DNA from: Victivallales bacterium
GTDB taxonomy: Bacteria > Verrucomicrobiota > Lentisphaeria > Oligosphaerales > Oligosphaeraceae
DNA length: 5,267 bases
Direction: 5' to 3'
Assembly (NCBI GenBank): GCA_900771165.1
Contig: CAAGMX010000342.1
Span: 1-5,267 of the forward strand
Positions 1-5,267 of this stretch are shown piece after piece (within the stretch, counting starts at the first letter, position 1; the number at the start of each line of letters is the position of its first letter). The position numbers and the translations under genes were made by a program. Under the pieces are notes generated by a model. The model saw only the letters and a list, made by a program, of their open reading frames with translations. It made no database searches and was not told where the DNA came from.

Positions 1-756
1 GAGCTGCCAATGGTCGGCGACCTGGAGGAAATCGGGGAAGCTATCTGCGGCAAGAGAAGCCTCCGCCTGCTGGAGAATCTCCTGCGCCTTGGCGCCAAAC
101 TCCCGGCTCCTGGCCTCCTCCAAGGTCCGATGAATCTTCTCCACGACCACATCGGGAACGGAAGCACGCCAACTGGGGGAGGACAACATCTCTTCCTTCG
201 CCTCCAAGGCCTCCCAGTTCCCATTCTGAATATCCTGCTTGGCCTCCTCGATCAATCCGGGAATGAAAGCCACCTCAGTGTGATGCAGTTGATTGAGCCA
301 GTCCGGATCGTTGGGCTGCCATTCCACAATCTTCCGCAGGACAATCAGTTTCTCCTCGCTGGCCTTGCTCCGGCTCATGCTTCGAAATACCCCAATCCAT
401 TCCTGCAGGGTGGTGGGTTCGTTCTGCACCTCCAGCAGACTTTGGAAAACGGAGGTTTTCAGCACCCGGGGCGGGGGAAGCTGATAGCTGTTGCAGGCTT
501 CAAAGAATTTGAGAATGCCCGGTCCCTGAAGGGGAGGCACCACCTCAAAGAGGGAGGGGCAAGTCTCCGCCGACAGCAGGGCTTCCGCTCGCTTGCCCGC
601 CGACAACAGGGCCTCGCATTTTCCCAGACGCTGATTGAGTTCCTCGCACACCTGGTTGTAATCCCCCAGCAATCTCTGAAAACTGGGAGAATTGGACCAG
701 TTCTCCTTGGCGAAGAAGGCCTCCAAACGGGCAATGACGGATCGGATCTTGTTCAT
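1..756 (-). CDS. Helical protein of unknown function, third gene of the operon (3' partial)
   Basis: From ATG at 756 (MNKIRSVIARLEAFFAKENW) the frame is open for 252 codons to the left edge with no stop; the C-terminus is missing. I do not recognise it with confidence. The visible part has no signal peptide or membrane helix and is almost wholly helical, with many Leu, Ala, Glu and Gln. LLSAGKRAEALLSAETCPSLFEVV (about 50-73) looks like a helical hairpin. LIVLRKIVEWQPNDPDWLNQL (about 137-157) has a TPR-like 'basic/aromatic helix, P-N-D, W' pattern. The rest (about 165-252) is amphipathic helices (AKQDIQNGNWEALEAKEEML; AQEILQQAEASLAADSF). It starts 3 bp after the GAP1 stop, so it is almost certainly co-transcribed and functionally linked. 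It could be a scaffold or adaptor, or the helical N-terminus of a longer protein. Codon use fits its neighbours, and the alternative plus-strand frame across the same DNA lacks family-like features. Confidence 0.75.
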   Translation of the reverse strand, partial: MNKIRSVIARLEAFFAKENWSNSPSFQRLLGDYNQVCEELNQRLGKCEALLSAGKRAEALLSAETCPSLFEVVPPLQGPGILKFFEACNSYQLPPPRVLKTSVFQSLLEVQNEPTTLQEWIGVFRSMSRSKASEEKLIVLRKIVEWQPNDPDWLNQLHHTEVAFIPGLIEEAKQDIQNGNWEALEAKEEMLSSPSWRASVPDVVVEKIHRTLEEARSREFGAKAQEILQQAEASLAADSFPDFLQVADHWQL

Positions 757-759
757 TCT

Positions 760-3339
760 CTACTTTTCCTCAAATCCAGGAAAGACAACCTCCCGGGAGG
801 GCTCTTCAGAGGACGGGAACTGCAGCTTCAACTTCCCCTTCCATTGCTTCTCCAACTTGGACCGTTTCTCCTCCAAGAAGCGTTCTCTCTGTGCCGAGGG
901 CAAAATCCCCTTCTGCCGCCTCTCCAGGATCTTCTGACAGGGTAATTTTTCTTCCTCTAGGTCCCACGTTAGGCCTTCCGGGAATTTCCACCCCTTTTCG
1001 TTCTTGAGTTTCTTCAAAGGCACCGTGGTCCAAAGTTGTTTCCGCAAGGCATTCAGTTCTTGCTGCAGGGAATGGGGGTCATGCTCCGGCTCCTCGGCCT
1101 TCCCCTCCGTGTCCGAGAGAGTTTCCTCGTCTTCCTCCTTCCCCTGTTCCTCGGATTGGGAAACTTCTGCATTGTCCTTCCCCTCCTCTGAGGAGTTTGC
1201 CAGCTCCTCCTTCTTCTCCGTTTTTTTGGATTTGGGAGGGTATTTCTCGGCGAGCTGTTTCTTCTCCGTGGAAACCCAGCCATGAAACTTGTTTTCCCTG
1301 AAGCTCTCCCACTTTTTCTCCTCCCCTTTGCCGGTTTCCCTGCAAAACTTCTCCCATTCCGTCTTTAGGCAGGAAATCCGGATTTCCACTTCGTTTTCCC
1401 GGATTTCTGCCTGAATCCCTTCTGGGCTTTCCCCGATCATCACCGTGGGGTCCTCCTTGACTCCCTCCTCATGGCTCCAAGAAAGCACAGCCACAGGAGA
1501 CGCCTTCTCGTCCCCCTCCGGCAGCTCCCAGCCGATCCAACGCCATGTTCCCGTGGGAGAGACGGAAGAAGAGGGCTTCCCCTTGTCAGACTTTTGTGGA
1601 GGGGCGGACTGGAATTGGATCTCGTGCGTCTTTTCATCGGAGCGTTTCAGAGTAATGGTTAATCCTTTCTGCTCCATTTCCTTCTGCAACCCTTCCCAGT
1701 CGTTTTTCTGACGGTTCGGAGACGTTGCGTTCCCCGCTTCAAGACGGAAGATGAGGAAGCGCCCCGTGGCCTCCAGGATCAAGGCTCCCCAGGAATCCCC
1801 GATGTTCACTTTCCATTCCCCCTCACCGGCTCCAAGGTCATTCCCATCCCATTTCACGGAATCAATGGTCCAGGAGATGTCCTCCTTGTCTTCCACTTTG
1901 AGAGCGAGGTGCGCTTCTTCTTTTTCCACCAGGTCTTTGGCCACTCCATAGGAAAGGTCCACATTTACCGGTGTCTCTTCCTTCCCAACCGTTCCCGGAA
2001 TGGCCTTCCGAATGTCGTCTAAGATTTTGTCTCCCAATGCAATACACTCCTTTTCCTGCTGGGCAATTCGCTCCTCCTCCTCGGGGGATTCTTTGTCTTT
2101 TCCAGGCTCCTGACTTGCCACTCCTTTCTCCATCTTTTCTTGGGCCAACATCCCCAGGGCAGCCTGCTCCCAAAGGGCCACAAGATGGATGGGCATCTTT
2201 TCCCACTGGGCCTTCTCCATGGTTTCGAGAAGCTCCTTTTGTCTCATCCAAAGATCCTGGATGATCCTCTCTTGCCGTTGGAGTTCCTTTTCGCCTTGCT
2301 TCCGTGCGTACATCTCCCGGACATACAGGCCCAGGGTGAACAGGCATAGGAGAAGAATCACGAGACAATAGGAATACTTCACCCCGCCCGTTCCCATCCC
2401 AGGATGAGGGGGGAAGGGCATAGGGGGAGGCGGAGGAGGAAGGGGAGCCATGGGCCGAGGGGCGAAAGGGGGAGGCTGGGGGGGCTTCCGCAGTCCAGCC
2501 ACGGGGGCGGGAGCCGAGGGGCCCTGAGGCCATTTCCCCGTCCGGGCAAACACCACATAGTCTCCCCCCTGGGCGGCGGGGAGCTTTTCTCGCAAATCCA
2601 GGACTTCGTTGCTCTCGGGGCGCCCTTTGGCCAGCTCCAGGAAAGGGGAGCCGGGGGGACAGAACCGGAGTCGGCATTCGCAGTCCGTGACATTCTCCGT
2701 GAAGTAGGTGCTGAAGGTCAAATTCCAGCGAAAAGAGGGAGGCGCCAGCTGCAATATCTCCCGCAGCAGGGAAAGATTGAGGGCATGCTTCTCCGGGGCG
2801 AAGAGGAAATAGAAGGTTTTCTGGGGAGCCTGAAGGAGGCGCTCCAGCACCGCCCCCGCCCATCCGGCATCCCCTGTGAGCGTATGCCAGCAGGAGCACC
2901 TCGCGGGCGCCGTCCCCTCCTTAGGCTGAGGATAGGGCAGATACTCCGCATGAATGGGCCAGCTGGGCTCTTTGAACAGGGTGGTGTCCTGGAACAACTC
3001 CCCGGGTCCCCCGGGGAAACGTCCCATTTCCTCCGGGGAGAGAACCAAATGGGAGGCCAGCTTATTGGAGCGCTGGGTGTAGTCCATGCCATTGAAGCAG
3101 ATGCGGCTCAGGACATGCACCGGCTTTCCCCCAATGCCCACCACCCGATGGCAATAATTCTCCGGATTCTGGGCGCTGCGGGGATCGTAATGGGGATAGA
3201 GAGGGGAATATCCGCTCAGCTGCTCCAATTTCTGACGGGTCGCGAGATTCATCTCCCGGTTGCAGCCCACCGTGGAAAATCCGGTATTCCCCGGAAATAG
3301 TCCATTCCGCGACGACGTATAAATCAGGGTGCCAAGCAT
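760..3339 (-). CDS. GAP1-N2-type GTPase-associated membrane protein
   Basis: Probable partner of the upstream GTPase; biochemical role unknown. Residues 1-110 match the GAP1-N2 pattern: MLGTLIYTSSRNGLFPGNTG, FSTVGCNREM, LEQLSGY, then VLSRICFNGMDYTQRSN and KLASHLVLSPEE. WHTLTGDAGWAGA (151-163) and FRWNLTFSTYFT (203-214) look like the conserved middle region. Residues 285-319 are proline-rich with six consecutive prolines, followed by one transmembrane helix (about 322-341) and a charged coiled-coil-like helix (about 342-385). The second half has two Trp-rich, beta-looking segments (about 487-580 and 597-665), a Lys/Glu-rich low-complexity stretch (about 690-757) and a short helical C-terminus. 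There is no signal peptide. The start is fixed by a strong ribosome site and by the family-typical N-terminus. No catalytic motif is visible; 'GAP1' here means GTPase-associated protein, and GTPase-activating activity should not be assumed. The second half is unrecognised. Confidence 0.85.
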   Translation of the reverse strand: MLGTLIYTSSRNGLFPGNTGFSTVGCNREMNLATRQKLEQLSGYSPLYPHYDPRSAQNPENYCHRVVGIGGKPVHVLSRICFNGMDYTQRSNKLASHLVLSPEEMGRFPGGPGELFQDTTLFKEPSWPIHAEYLPYPQPKEGTAPARCSCWHTLTGDAGWAGAVLERLLQAPQKTFYFLFAPEKHALNLSLLREILQLAPPSFRWNLTFSTYFTENVTDCECRLRFCPPGSPFLELAKGRPESNEVLDLREKLPAAQGGDYVVFARTGKWPQGPSAPAPVAGLRKPPQPPPFAPRPMAPLPPPPPPMPFPPHPGMGTGGVKYSYCLVILLLCLFTLGLYVREMYARKQGEKELQRQERIIQDLWMRQKELLETMEKAQWEKMPIHLVALWEQAALGMLAQEKMEKGVASQEPGKDKESPEEEERIAQQEKECIALGDKILDDIRKAIPGTVGKEETPVNVDLSYGVAKDLVEKEEAHLALKVEDKEDISWTIDSVKWDGNDLGAGEGEWKVNIGDSWGALILEATGRFLIFRLEAGNATSPNRQKNDWEGLQKEMEQKGLTITLKRSDEKTHEIQFQSAPPQKSDKGKPSSSVSPTGTWRWIGWELPEGDEKASPVAVLSWSHEEGVKEDPTVMIGESPEGIQAEIRENEVEIRISCLKTEWEKFCRETGKGEEKKWESFRENKFHGWVSTEKKQLAEKYPPKSKKTEKKEELANSSEEGKDNAEVSQSEEQGKEEDEETLSDTEGKAEEPEHDPHSLQQELNALRKQLWTTVPLKKLKNEKGWKFPEGLTWDLEEEKLPCQKILERRQKGILPSAQRERFLEEKRSKLEKQWKGKLKLQFPSSEEPSREVVFPGFEEK
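768..771 (-). promoter_or_regulatory. Weak, distant Shine-Dalgarno (GAGG) for the third gene
   Basis: Upstream of the ATG at 756 the minus strand reads TTGAGGAAAAGTAGAGAATG. GAGG is 11 nt from the start, longer than ideal, and lies inside the last codons of the GAP1 gene. With only 3 nt between the GAP1 stop (TAG, 762-760) and the start, expression of the third gene probably depends on termination-reinitiation from the GAP1 gene. This contrasts with the strong site in front of GAP1. Confidence 0.5.
2317..2376 (-). other. Single predicted transmembrane helix of the GAP1 protein
   Basis: Residues about 322-341 (YSYCLVILLLCLFTLGLYVR) form an uninterrupted hydrophobic helix of about 18-19 residues. 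It is followed by the charged stretch EMYARKQGEKELQRQ and preceded by Gly and one Lys. It is too far from the N-terminus (321 residues) to be a cleavable signal, so it is an internal anchor. The positive charges lie mainly on the C-terminal side, which leaves the orientation uncertain. Confidence 0.85.
2383..2487 (-). other. Proline-rich hinge of the GAP1 protein
   Basis: Residues 285-319 are roughly half proline and include a run of six prolines (PLPPPPPPMPFPP), ending in a Gly-rich GMGTGG just before the membrane helix. It separates the GAP1-N2/middle part from the membrane anchor and is probably an extended, disordered spacer. Polyproline runs of this kind typically need elongation factor P for efficient translation. 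Confidence 0.85.
2442..2484 (+). other. G-tract cluster with quadruplex-forming potential, opposite the polyproline codons
   Basis: On the plus strand (the template strand of the GAP1 gene) G-tracts of three or more lie at 2442-2445, 2452-2454, 2459-2462, 2468-2472 and 2478-2484, with loops of 6, 4, 5 and 5 nt. This satisfies the usual G3+N1-7 pattern. Three further tracts lie at 2408-2413, 2416-2418 and 2423-2427. The simplest explanation is that CCN proline codons produce G-runs on the opposite strand, so any regulatory effect is speculative. Confidence 0.5.
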
Positions 3340-3345
3340 ATTCTT

Positions 3346-3351
3346 CTCCTT
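3346..3351 (-). promoter_or_regulatory. Shine-Dalgarno AAGGAG for the GAP1 gene, overlapping the GTPase stop codon
   Basis: Read on the minus strand, TAAGGAGAAGAATATG joins the GTPase stop codon (TAA) to the GAP1 start. AAGGAG lies 6 nt before the ATG, a near-ideal spacing, and its first two A's are also part of the stop codon. This fixes the GAP1 start at 3339. It also suggests translational coupling: ribosomes ending on the GTPase gene stop on the ribosome site of its partner, which would help keep the two proteins in a set ratio. Confidence 0.9.
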
Positions 3352-5267
3352 AATTTTCCCAGAAGTTCATGTCCTTGAGCGGGACCACATCCTCGCCTTG
3401 CCGGATGGCGGCCTCTTTCGGGCTTGAGAGGGCGCGTTCTGGGGCAGGCGGGAGGGTGTAGGAGCGGCCGTCTTCCTCGTTGAAGAGAATGGTGCCGCAG
3501 TAGTAGTCTGGCAGGATGAAGCGCTCTTTTCCCCCGGGGAAGGTGAAGATGGCCTTTCCGTTCAGGAAATGGATATCTTCCACCTTGGGCAGGCTTTCGT
3601 CCTCTCCCACGCCTCCGGCAAGGAAACCATTCAGATAAAGGAGGAGGAGGAAAGGCAGTTCCACCCAGATGGGCTGGATATGCTCCGGGCGGATGCCAAT
3701 CATTCCCCTGAGGGGATCGTACTCCGGAATCCGCCCCAAGGCGCTGACCGGCACGAAGTAGACCTTTTTGGCAAATCCCTCCGCCAACCCCACGATCTCC
3801 GGCGCAATCTTCAGGAGCATGCGTCGCAGGCAGAAGGAGACATTGGTCACCAGTCCCATCTCCAGGCAGGCCGTCCCATTCTCGTCGCAAACGCAGTATT
3901 CCTCGCCCTCCAGCTTCAAGGGGAAGGTGTCCCGCCAGGAATCGAACTTCGGCACCACCACGATCAGGGGTTTGGCAATTTTTTCATTGGCCTGGAGATT
4001 TGCCAATTTTCGGATGCGGGAGGCCATTTCCGTGAAGAAGGTATTCTGGTTCACGTAGTTGGCAATACGGGAGACCTGGGGATCCTCCGGAGAGCATGTC
4101 TCCTTCATGCGGGTATCTTTCAGGGGATCATAGAAGAAGATGATTCCGTCGGAATGGAGGAGGTGGAGGCTGGAAAGATTGCTGGCGGTGTTTCGTCCCA
4201 CCTCGAAATGTTCTCCGGCGTTGTCATAAAAGACGATGCTCCGTTCCAGTTCCTTCTTCCGGGTGAGGTACTCCGGGTGATTTTCCTGGGGCATCATGGT
4301 GAAGACGAAGGGCTTGGGGAGGTCCAGCACATTGCCCTGGATGTTAATCTGGCTGGAGTATCCCGTCCCCTGGAGTTCGGTCTTGGGGAGGGAGACCGCC
4401 CGGGAAGGCTCCGGATTCATGAAGATCAACTTCTCGTAGTCGTTCAATACCATGTTGAACATGGGGTCGGTGTCGTAGAAGCTGAAGCTGAATTTACTCG
4501 GCAGGATATTTCGGAGCCGCCAGACCAGAGAGGTCAGGAAATAGGATTTGCCGCTGGCCGGCGCCCCCACGATGGAGAAGAAGGAAGAGGGGAGATCCAC
4601 CACGGAATTGGGAATCTTCAGATGGCAGTGGGGACAGGCCATGTCCGTGCATTCCATTCCCTTGGCATCCAAAGGCGTTCCTTTGGAAGTAAAGGACTTG
4701 GGAAGGAAGCGCTGGAAGGCATCCGCCCCCAGCAAATCATCCCCCGTCAGTTCACTATGGGAAGAGACATACAGGAGCTTCTCCAATGTGCAACGCCCCC
4801 AGCAGTGAGGACAAACCACATTCCCATTCTCCTCCCCGGTGCGGCTATACCAGGTGCGCATGGTGACCTCCAGGGGGGGAAAGACTTTCTCCTCCCCGGG
4901 GTCCACCATGGGGGCGTCCTCCATAGGCTGAACCATGGGAGCGTCAGAAGCCCCCTCCAGAGGCGTGACCATGGGACCCGTCTGGGAAGAAAAGGAAGAT
5001 GCCCCCGCAGACATGCCTCCGCCTGGGGGCATGACGGGAGCCCCGCCCCCAGGATACGCCATGGAGGAAGAGGAGGAAGGATAGGCCGGCGGGGAAGCAA
5101 CCGGCCCAGGCGCCGGAGCAGGAGAATACCCCTGGGGAGGCCAACCGGGAGCAGGAGCAGGAGCGGGAGAATATCCCTGGGGAGGCCAACCGGGAGCAGG
5201 AGCAGGAGCGGGAGAATACCCCTGGGGAGGCCAGCCGGGAGCAGGAGCAGGAGCGGGAGAATACCCC
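3350..5267 (-). CDS. Zinc-ribbon P-loop GTPase, double-GTPase-like (5' partial)
   Basis: Probable regulatory GTPase that pairs with the GAP1-type protein encoded next. The frame is open to the right edge (638 codons visible) and the start is missing. The ATG at 5062 lacks any purine-rich ribosome site, and in-frame repeats continue upstream of it, so it is internal. Numbering from that Met: Pro/Ala/Gly-rich tail upstream to about 60; two CPHC pairs (C84/C87, C143/C146) as in a split zinc ribbon; P-loop GAPASGKS at 166-173; Walker B/G3 DNAG at 280-283 after hydrophobic SIVFY; G4-like PKFD at 371-374 after IVVV; G5-like VPVSAL at 437-442; hydrophobic block ELPFLLLLYLNGFL at 468-481. The motif order and spacing are those of a TRAFAC-type GTPase. 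The GAP1 neighbour points to the DO-GTPase families of bacterial conflict systems (recalled, not searched). The G4 motif lacks the usual Asn/Thr. GTPase call fairly sure; exact family and role inferred. Confidence 0.85.
   Translation of the reverse strand, partial: GYSPAPAPAPGWPPQGYSPAPAPAPGWPPQGYSPAPAPAPGWPPQGYSPAPAPGPVASPPAYPSSSSSMAYPGGGAPVMPPGGGMSAGASSFSSQTGPMVTPLEGASDAPMVQPMEDAPMVDPGEEKVFPPLEVTMRTWYSRTGEENGNVVCPHCWGRCTLEKLLYVSSHSELTGDDLLGADAFQRFLPKSFTSKGTPLDAKGMECTDMACPHCHLKIPNSVVDLPSSFFSIVGAPASGKSYFLTSLVWRLRNILPSKFSFSFYDTDPMFNMVLNDYEKLIFMNPEPSRAVSLPKTELQGTGYSSQINIQGNVLDLPKPFVFTMMPQENHPEYLTRKKELERSIVFYDNAGEHFEVGRNTASNLSSLHLLHSDGIIFFYDPLKDTRMKETCSPEDPQVSRIANYVNQNTFFTEMASRIRKLANLQANEKIAKPLIVVVPKFDSWRDTFPLKLEGEEYCVCDENGTACLEMGLVTNVSFCLRRMLLKIAPEIVGLAEGFAKKVYFVPVSALGRIPEYDPLRGMIGIRPEHIQPIWVELPFLLLLYLNGFLAGGVGEDESLPKVEDIHFLNGKAIFTFPGGKERFILPDYYCGTILFNEEDGRSYTLPPAPERALSSPKEAAIRQGEDVVPLKDMNFWEN
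4544..4567 (-). other. Walker A / G1 P-loop of the GTPase
   Basis: The eight codons read GAPASGKS, an exact GxxxxGK[ST] P-loop preceded by the hydrophobic strand FFSIV and followed by YFLTSLVWRL, a helix. Lys172 and Ser173 would contact the phosphates and the magnesium ion. This is the strongest single catalytic motif in the window. Confidence 0.93.
4625..4813 (-). other. Split zinc-ribbon motif (two CPHC pairs) within the GTPase
   Basis: C84-P-H-C87 and C143-P-H-C146 are identical CPHC knuckles separated by 55 residues, with extra Cys at 91 and 138. Paired CxxC knuckles of this form usually bind one structural zinc ion. The long insert means they would come together in the fold and not form a compact ribbon. 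The second knuckle lies about 20 residues before the P-loop, so the zinc unit is directly joined to the nucleotide-binding domain. Metal binding is inferred from the motif only. Confidence 0.7.
4895..4975 (-). repeat. Degenerate nine-residue PMV repeats in the GTPase N-terminus
   Basis: Residues 30-56 (counted from the internal Met at 5062) hold three copies of a PMVxPxExA-like unit: PMVTPLEGA, PMVQPMEDA and PMVDPGEEK. Copies two and three are directly adjacent, and a three-residue SDA spacer separates copies one and two. The segment lies between the Pro/Ala array and the first CPHC pair. It is probably a flexible acidic linker. The copies are diverged, so the duplication is older than the 45-bp array. 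Confidence 0.6.
5121..5267 (-). repeat. 45-bp in-frame tandem repeat array, about 3.3 visible copies, continuing off the right edge
   Basis: Units begin at 5121, 5166, 5211 and 5256 (the last cut by the edge), with an exact 45-bp period. Across the three full units only two substitutions are seen, at 5174 and 5234. Both are third-position changes that leave Gly unchanged. Each unit encodes GYSPAPAPAPGWPPQ in the N-terminal region of the GTPase gene. The inner part is a 6-bp subrepeat (Ala-Pro codons). A degenerate final unit, GYSPAPAPGPV, follows and leads into a Ser-rich stretch. The total copy number cannot be seen. Such arrays change length readily by slippage or recombination, and assembly may also have collapsed or expanded it. 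Confidence 0.95.

Follow-up and report, generated by a model that had tools for sequence, protein, structure and literature searches.

A zinc-ribbon GTPase and membrane-anchored GAP1 protein from a Victivallales bacterium as the possible switch end of a motor-linked membrane system

What does a bacterial GTPase encoded beside a membrane-anchored GAP1 protein act upon? The question is raised by a 5,267-nucleotide stretch from a Victivallales bacterium (GCA_900771165.1, contig CAAGMX010000342.1, positions 1 to 5,267), which we call the window and which holds three consecutive reading frames, all on the minus strand: a zinc-ribbon GTPase (gene 1, 5266-3350), a GAP1 protein (gene 2, 3339-760) and the start of a helical protein, HEL (gene 3, 756-1). 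An initial annotation had read them as a candidate conflict or signalling module whose output, if any, was new or lay beyond the edges. The gene order and the gaps it gave, 10 bases from gene 1 to gene 2 and 3 bases from gene 2 to gene 3, are borne out by the frame coordinates, and an output beyond the edges is consistent with the gene content of relatives. We propose, with even odds in our own judgment, that the window holds the switch of a membrane-bound GTPase system and that this switch gates an apparent ion-driven motor of the type encoded after it in relatives.

The gene content of related loci carries this proposal. Among 197 genomes searched from the nearest class, every one draft-quality or unrated, 75 carried gene 3/HEL and 73 carried GAP1. 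We fetched 99 neighbourhoods from this class (L076-L174) and mapped them by profiles, and the triplet recurred, a check that the initial annotation had proposed. Two loci, L092 and L155, have a GAP1-N2 gene of ~365-387 aa but no recognised GTPase or HEL in 18.0 and 12.5 kb. Sorted by GAP1, 46 neighbourhoods were long (at least 500 aa), 37 short and uncut (~300-390 aa, essentially N2 and M), 12 had none and four were cut; the window's GAP1 falls in the long class. The GTPase was also present in 46/46 long and 32/37 short loci, and a HEL of >800 aa in 38/46 and 27/37, with contig edges accounting for many of the missing partner genes. Scoring for motor genes was limited to loci with a HEL of >800 aa whose contig continues for at least 4.5 kb past that gene, which left 31/46 long and 17/37 short loci. 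MotA-like, B6 and B5 genes were present in 30/31 of the former, L097 being the sole motor-less case, versus 0/17 of the latter (Fisher p 4e-12, related loci treated as independent); a gene counted as present wherever it lay in the fetched stretch, some loci (L100, L111, L123, L124) have a different gene order, and the three profiles came from clusters of L001-L035, a set that partly coincides with the counted loci. A GYF gene occurred in 25/31 scorable long-class loci. In L012-L034, from planctomycetes and some Lentisphaerota, the motor was present in 3/7 scorable long-class loci and absent in 4/7.

The trio in these relatives combines a channel subunit of MotA/ExbB type with two paralogous candidate axle subunits likened to MotB/ExbD, B6 and B5, which presumably form a heterodimer. 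Both MotA-like proteins scanned matched PF01618 over cut-off (E 1.6e-7 and 3.7e-10). An N-terminal transmembrane (TM) helix with an invariant Asp was found in 38/38 B6 and 37/37 B5 alignment rows, the TM-less B6 of genome G125 being outside these alignments. The MotB-like subunit has a coiled coil of >120 residues and a TolR/ExbD-like end domain, and could span the periplasm; PDB searches with the B6 and B5 profiles gave hundreds of coiled-coil matches and were uninformative. The relatives share with the 5:2 motors (MotAB, ExbBD, TolQR, ZorAB) the MotA/ExbB Pfam family, the end domain and axle subunits with one N-terminal TM helix bearing an invariant Asp. Unlike those motors, they have two paralogous axle genes, a long coiled coil and linkage to a GTPase switch. 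That B5 and B6 are ordinary ExbD is not supported, and ordinary ExbD genes occur separately in the 15 genomes searched. Zorya membership was likewise rejected, the two MotA-like relatives scanned reaching 21.2 bits (E 1.3e-4) and 12.6 bits (E 0.05) against the curated ZorA model NF033915, whose cut-off is 100.

Linkage was also evident across the class. MotA-like places in the class at E 1.4e-80 or better, strong matches defined via a profile built on operon members, numbered 44, with 40 on the same contig as HEL or GAP1 and the other four (G056, G062, G055, G194) within ~250 bases of a contig end. Below them lay seven matches at E 1e-54 to 1e-71 and seven weaker ones, and a further search gave three at E 1e-60 to 1e-62. 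B5 places at E 1e-60 or better numbered 42, of which 38 were linked to HEL or GAP1, three were at contig ends and one was mid-contig in G125. This last locus (L192, 8676-10305) holds a B6-B5 pair with no MotA-like, HEL or GAP1 gene in 19 kb, and its B6 lacks the TM part; the gene directly before B6 is, we assume, AraC-like. The pair may be a remnant, a rearrangement or an assembly join.

Among 294 planctomycete genomes, 12 had a MotA-like match at E 1e-80 and 22 had GAP1-N2. In nine of the 12 motor genomes the two lay no more than 8 kb apart on one strand of a single contig, and in G313 they lay on separate contigs. Two others, G267 and G382, had a strong motor match and no GAP1-N2 match in the genome. 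The trio can stand alone, since neither GAP1 nor HEL occurs in the stretches fetched around five divergent MotA-B6-B5 trios (L175-L179). The more distant L180-L182 also lack GAP1 and HEL, L181 showing MotA and B6 only, with B6 near a contig end. L175-L182 are a stand-alone three-gene motor family.

Gene 3 (1..756) is cut by the window's left edge, which leaves the first 252 aa of HEL. The initial annotation had described an unrecognised helical protein. No recognised domain was indeed found (a Pfam scan of gene 3 gave nothing significant), but the idea of a small helical protein is refuted by the relatives: the visible part is the N-terminal portion of a ~1000-aa helical family with a single TM helix, usually encoded directly after GAP1 in mapped loci. 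The helix was predicted once in 85/86 full-length rows, with a median start at residue 353, and none was predicted in the visible part of gene 3. Charge is more positive on the N-terminal side of the helix, which suggests a cytoplasmic N-terminus. Nine HEL relatives gave no Pfam domain over cut-off (best sub-threshold rows E 3e-4), and a protein search for gene 3 returned 0/704 candidates, although the class-wide genome search did find HEL. We also rejected GASH, the component of GAP1-N1 systems, as the identity of gene 3: PF19994 was over cut-off in 0/197 class genomes, 75 of which have HEL, and its sole sub-threshold match fell in a genome without HEL. In the HEL tree the window's sequence grouped with L076, L077 and L079 (support 98/88); L077 and L079 are motor loci, and the contig of L076 ends after HEL. 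The motor label was clustered on this tree and not confined to one clade (12 changes vs 29.5 in shuffles). Genome G001 apparently has two copies of the system (L076, L077, L078), each broken by contig ends.

The switch itself is readily recognised. Gene 1 (3350..5266) encodes a zinc-ribbon DO-GTPase2 with 638 aa within the window, supported by PF19993 (E 5e-7, 30 bits, cut-off 27) and by conservation in a 91-row alignment. Two of nine relatives' GTPases also pass this cut-off; the other seven, unlike the window's, fall below it (16-27 bits). The motif positions given in the initial annotation are correct in 570-aa numbering: the P-loop GAPASGKS (G166-S173; 4544..4567), the G3/Walker B DNAGEH with its Glu (from 280; 4208..4225) and the G5-like VPVSAL (437; 3737..3754). 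A G4-like K-x-D (KFD) lies at 3941-3949. P-loop, DNAGE, K-x-D and S-A together fit a TRAFAC-type DO-GTPase, and Kaur et al. 2020 (PMC7159879, available text) describe a Walker B Glu as conserved in DO-GTPases. Alignment conservation extends to the P-loop, the G3 and G5-like motifs and the zinc-ribbon cysteines (4622..4813; CPHCW at 4799-4813 and CTDMACPHCH at 4622-4651). No TM helix was predicted in the window's part of the GTPase, and a PDB sequence search with it gave no match.

At its N-terminal end the GTPase frame stays open beyond the right edge, where 3.6 copies of an in-frame 45-bp repeat encode a proline-rich 15-aa unit (GYSPAPAPAPGWPPQ; 5107..5267); the full-length protein may therefore exceed 570 aa. 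The same region of L001, the nearest homologue, has a GYF_2-like stretch (below cut-off) followed by a Pro-rich linker, and because the window's repeats match this layout, the GTPase may have a GYF domain a short way beyond the right edge. GYF_2 was found in six of nine GTPases scanned (five over cut-off; the sixth, L001, below), and the L005 GTPase has a zinc-ribbon-like stretch at its N-terminus. In both short-class GTPases scanned (L025, L144) an N-terminal FHA domain takes the place of the GYF_2 seen in most long-class ones scanned. A general rule that the GYF domains of gene 4 bind GTPase proline-rich stretches was not supported: Pro-Gly-hydrophobic motifs occurred in the GTPase N-termini of 9/62 long-GAP1 and 10/38 short-class loci (loci without a recognised zinc-ribbon start scored as zero), and median proline content was nearly equal (0.071 vs 0.076). 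In the window's own system, where GTPase and GAP1 are both proline-rich, such binding is possible.

Gene 2 (760..3339) encodes an 859-aa GAP1 protein of the long, TM-bearing type directly downstream of the GTPase. The predicted GAP1-N2 identity is confirmed by PF20013 (2980..3339, E 1.1e-20, over cut-off), and GAP1-M is also present (PF20014, 2632..2880, E 4.2e-10, over cut-off). Its membrane anchor is a single predicted helix at residues 320-338 (2326..2382), preceded by a proline-rich linker (2392..2487); a single TM helix was likewise found in 58/60 distinct long GAP1 proteins. No third GAP1 domain appeared in the Pfam scan of the protein, the presence of a GAP1-C model in the library being unchecked, and no FNIII domain was matched in this analysis. 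The best full-length relative, itself excluded, comes from an Oligosphaeraceae metagenome-assembled genome at 49% identity, which points to a Lentisphaerota member as the probable host.

The head of this protein hints at what it does to the GTPase. GAP1-N2 has the predicted strand/helix order bb-a-bbb-aa, which we take to be that of longin domains. Residues 1-282, with N2 and M together, bear in the structure model a borderline resemblance to the DENN modules of the Rab exchange factors DENND1A/1B and DENND10: the apparent common layout has two domains, longin-like and alpha/beta, and both have a GTPase partner. They differ in that GAP1 is prokaryotic, has no sequence match to DENN and has no identified d-DENN domain. 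Overall confidence in the model is low (pLDDT 65, with blocks of 45-87 across residues 1-120), and the GAP1-M region is among its best-predicted parts. The best 50 of 651 Foldseek rows were immunoglobulin-type proteins, and the DENN rows came from a second look with VIA at a borderline structural score. At E 5 the 73 GAP1 heads together matched 12 families, none of them DENN, and a PDB search with the GAP1-head alignment (A9) at E 10 gave three chance-level matches and no DENN chain. The GAP1 head would regulate the GTPase, probably by acting like a longin-DENN exchange factor.

These parts can be assembled into a working scheme. The GTPase would act as the switch, and the GAP1 head would hold it and alter its nucleotide state while the GAP1 tail beyond the membrane would sense the envelope or an invader. 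HEL would serve as a single-TM scaffold tying the switch to the next component. We infer that the window's operon continues as in window-type relatives, with a GYF-domain protein (in some cases carrying a fused trypsin-like protease) and the three-gene motor. HEL and the GYF proteins would relay the GTPase state to the motor, whose ion flow and force, started or stopped by the change of state, would act on the envelope. Through such pairing of switch and motor a cell could turn envelope machinery on or off upon attack or stress. The observations behind the scheme are the genes and their domains, the linkage in relatives and the invariant residues of the motor subunits.

The strongest competitor, which we nevertheless consider doubtful, is an ordinary conflict system of the type described by Kaur et al., in which the pair senses an invader and frees a variable effector; the motor would count as a further effector, such as an ion leak halting the infected cell. 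The core pair occurs with a GYF-trypsin or GYF-TM partner as in their planctomycete systems (PMC7159879, available text), one of the two MotA-like proteins has the weak ZorA similarity given above, and patchy distribution combined with the published framing favours a conflict purpose. Yet the trio is near-constant in long-GAP1 loci of the class, unlike a fast-changing effector, and PADLOC gave zero matches for all three window proteins. The family call of DO-GTPase plus GAP1-N2 stands, whereas 'conflict' and a 'killing output' are unproven: no toxin-like domain was matched among the window proteins in Pfam, PADLOC and NCBIfam scans (the last giving a single row at chance level). The one clear effector-like domain in relatives, from one locus scanned, is a trypsin-like protease, in a cluster of eight full-length proteins.

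Somewhat less probable again is a housekeeping or stress machine crossing the envelope like Tol-Pal or gliding motors, with the GTPase setting position or timing and no conflict involved. Gene order is largely constant across many genomes, and another DO-GTPase is reported in psp operons with a predicted role in membrane-related stress (PMC11237479, available portion), which together favour this purpose; the long coiled coil with its TolR/ExbD-like end could cross the periplasm, and the separate ordinary ExbD genes agree. GAP1 is patchy, however (73/197 class and 22/294 planctomycete genomes), which is unexpected for an essential function. Least likely is a motor-less system like L013 or L097, its three genes acting alone with a GYF or other partner: the window ends within HEL, and the motor is missing from 1/31 class and 4/7 scored L012-L034 long-GAP1 loci, but two motor loci share the tree group of the window's HEL.

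Returning to the motor-gating switch, part of it is already in print. Kaur et al. named DO-GTPases and GAP1 and noted zinc ribbons and TM-bearing GAP1-N2, and in their planctomycete partner GYF domains are joined to trypsin or else to a region rich in TM helices (PMC7159879, available text); all of these the window and its relatives have in common with their systems, along with GAP1-M. The GTPase-GAP1 architecture is therefore not new, and the first two genes add one more member. What sets the proposed subtype apart is instead HEL, with its ~1000-aa family, together with the motor-like genes encoded after it in relatives, and not the three genes as such. HEL is not named among the system components in the available text of Kaur et al., the themes of its section 29 (tubulin; HSP70; kinase-PP2C-vWA) include none with a motor, unlike the relatives here, and the words MotA, ExbB, TolQ and proton are absent from its main text as available. 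No publication joining GAP1-N2 or DO-GTPase with MotA, ExbB or TolQ was among the matches listed (best 10 of 149 and 10 of 37), a third search on novelty gave nothing in print among the best 10 of 26 matches, and the available part of PMC12505986 has no mention of GTPase, Lentisphaera or GAP1.

DO-GTPase/GAP1 systems have predicted membrane action, varied effectors and no tested output that we found; the near-constant link to the motor trio gives one branch a concrete, testable output in ion flow or force. HEL is added as a widespread family, nine scanned members of which gave no Pfam model over cut-off. Should the resemblance to DENN prove real, the partner's role would be nucleotide exchange, which bears on the origin of Rab regulation, sought by Zhang et al. 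2012 in prokaryotic Roadblock GAPs (PMC3521125, available portion). The full proposition is that Lentisphaerota and Planctomycetota have a GTPase-gated rotary envelope motor in which a DENN-like membrane-anchored exchange factor, sensing what lies across the membrane, loads the GTPase, which by way of HEL and GYF proteins engages a MotA-type pentamer set around a heterodimeric MotB-like axle; we regard it as speculative and rather unlikely in all its parts. If true, the system would be a relative of Zorya and Tol-Pal under G-protein control, with the GAP1 head as a prokaryotic equivalent of the DENN Rab guanine-nucleotide exchange factors of eukaryotes.

A viral origin was rejected, as 28 pattern matches in viral contigs included 0 relatives. 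Four short-GAP1 loci (L025, L026, L029, L030) share a ~610-aa gene close after HEL (for example L025:14863-16698). The one scanned from these short-GAP1 loci matched PilM_2 (E 6.7e-8), which suggests another membrane machine as the partner in those four.

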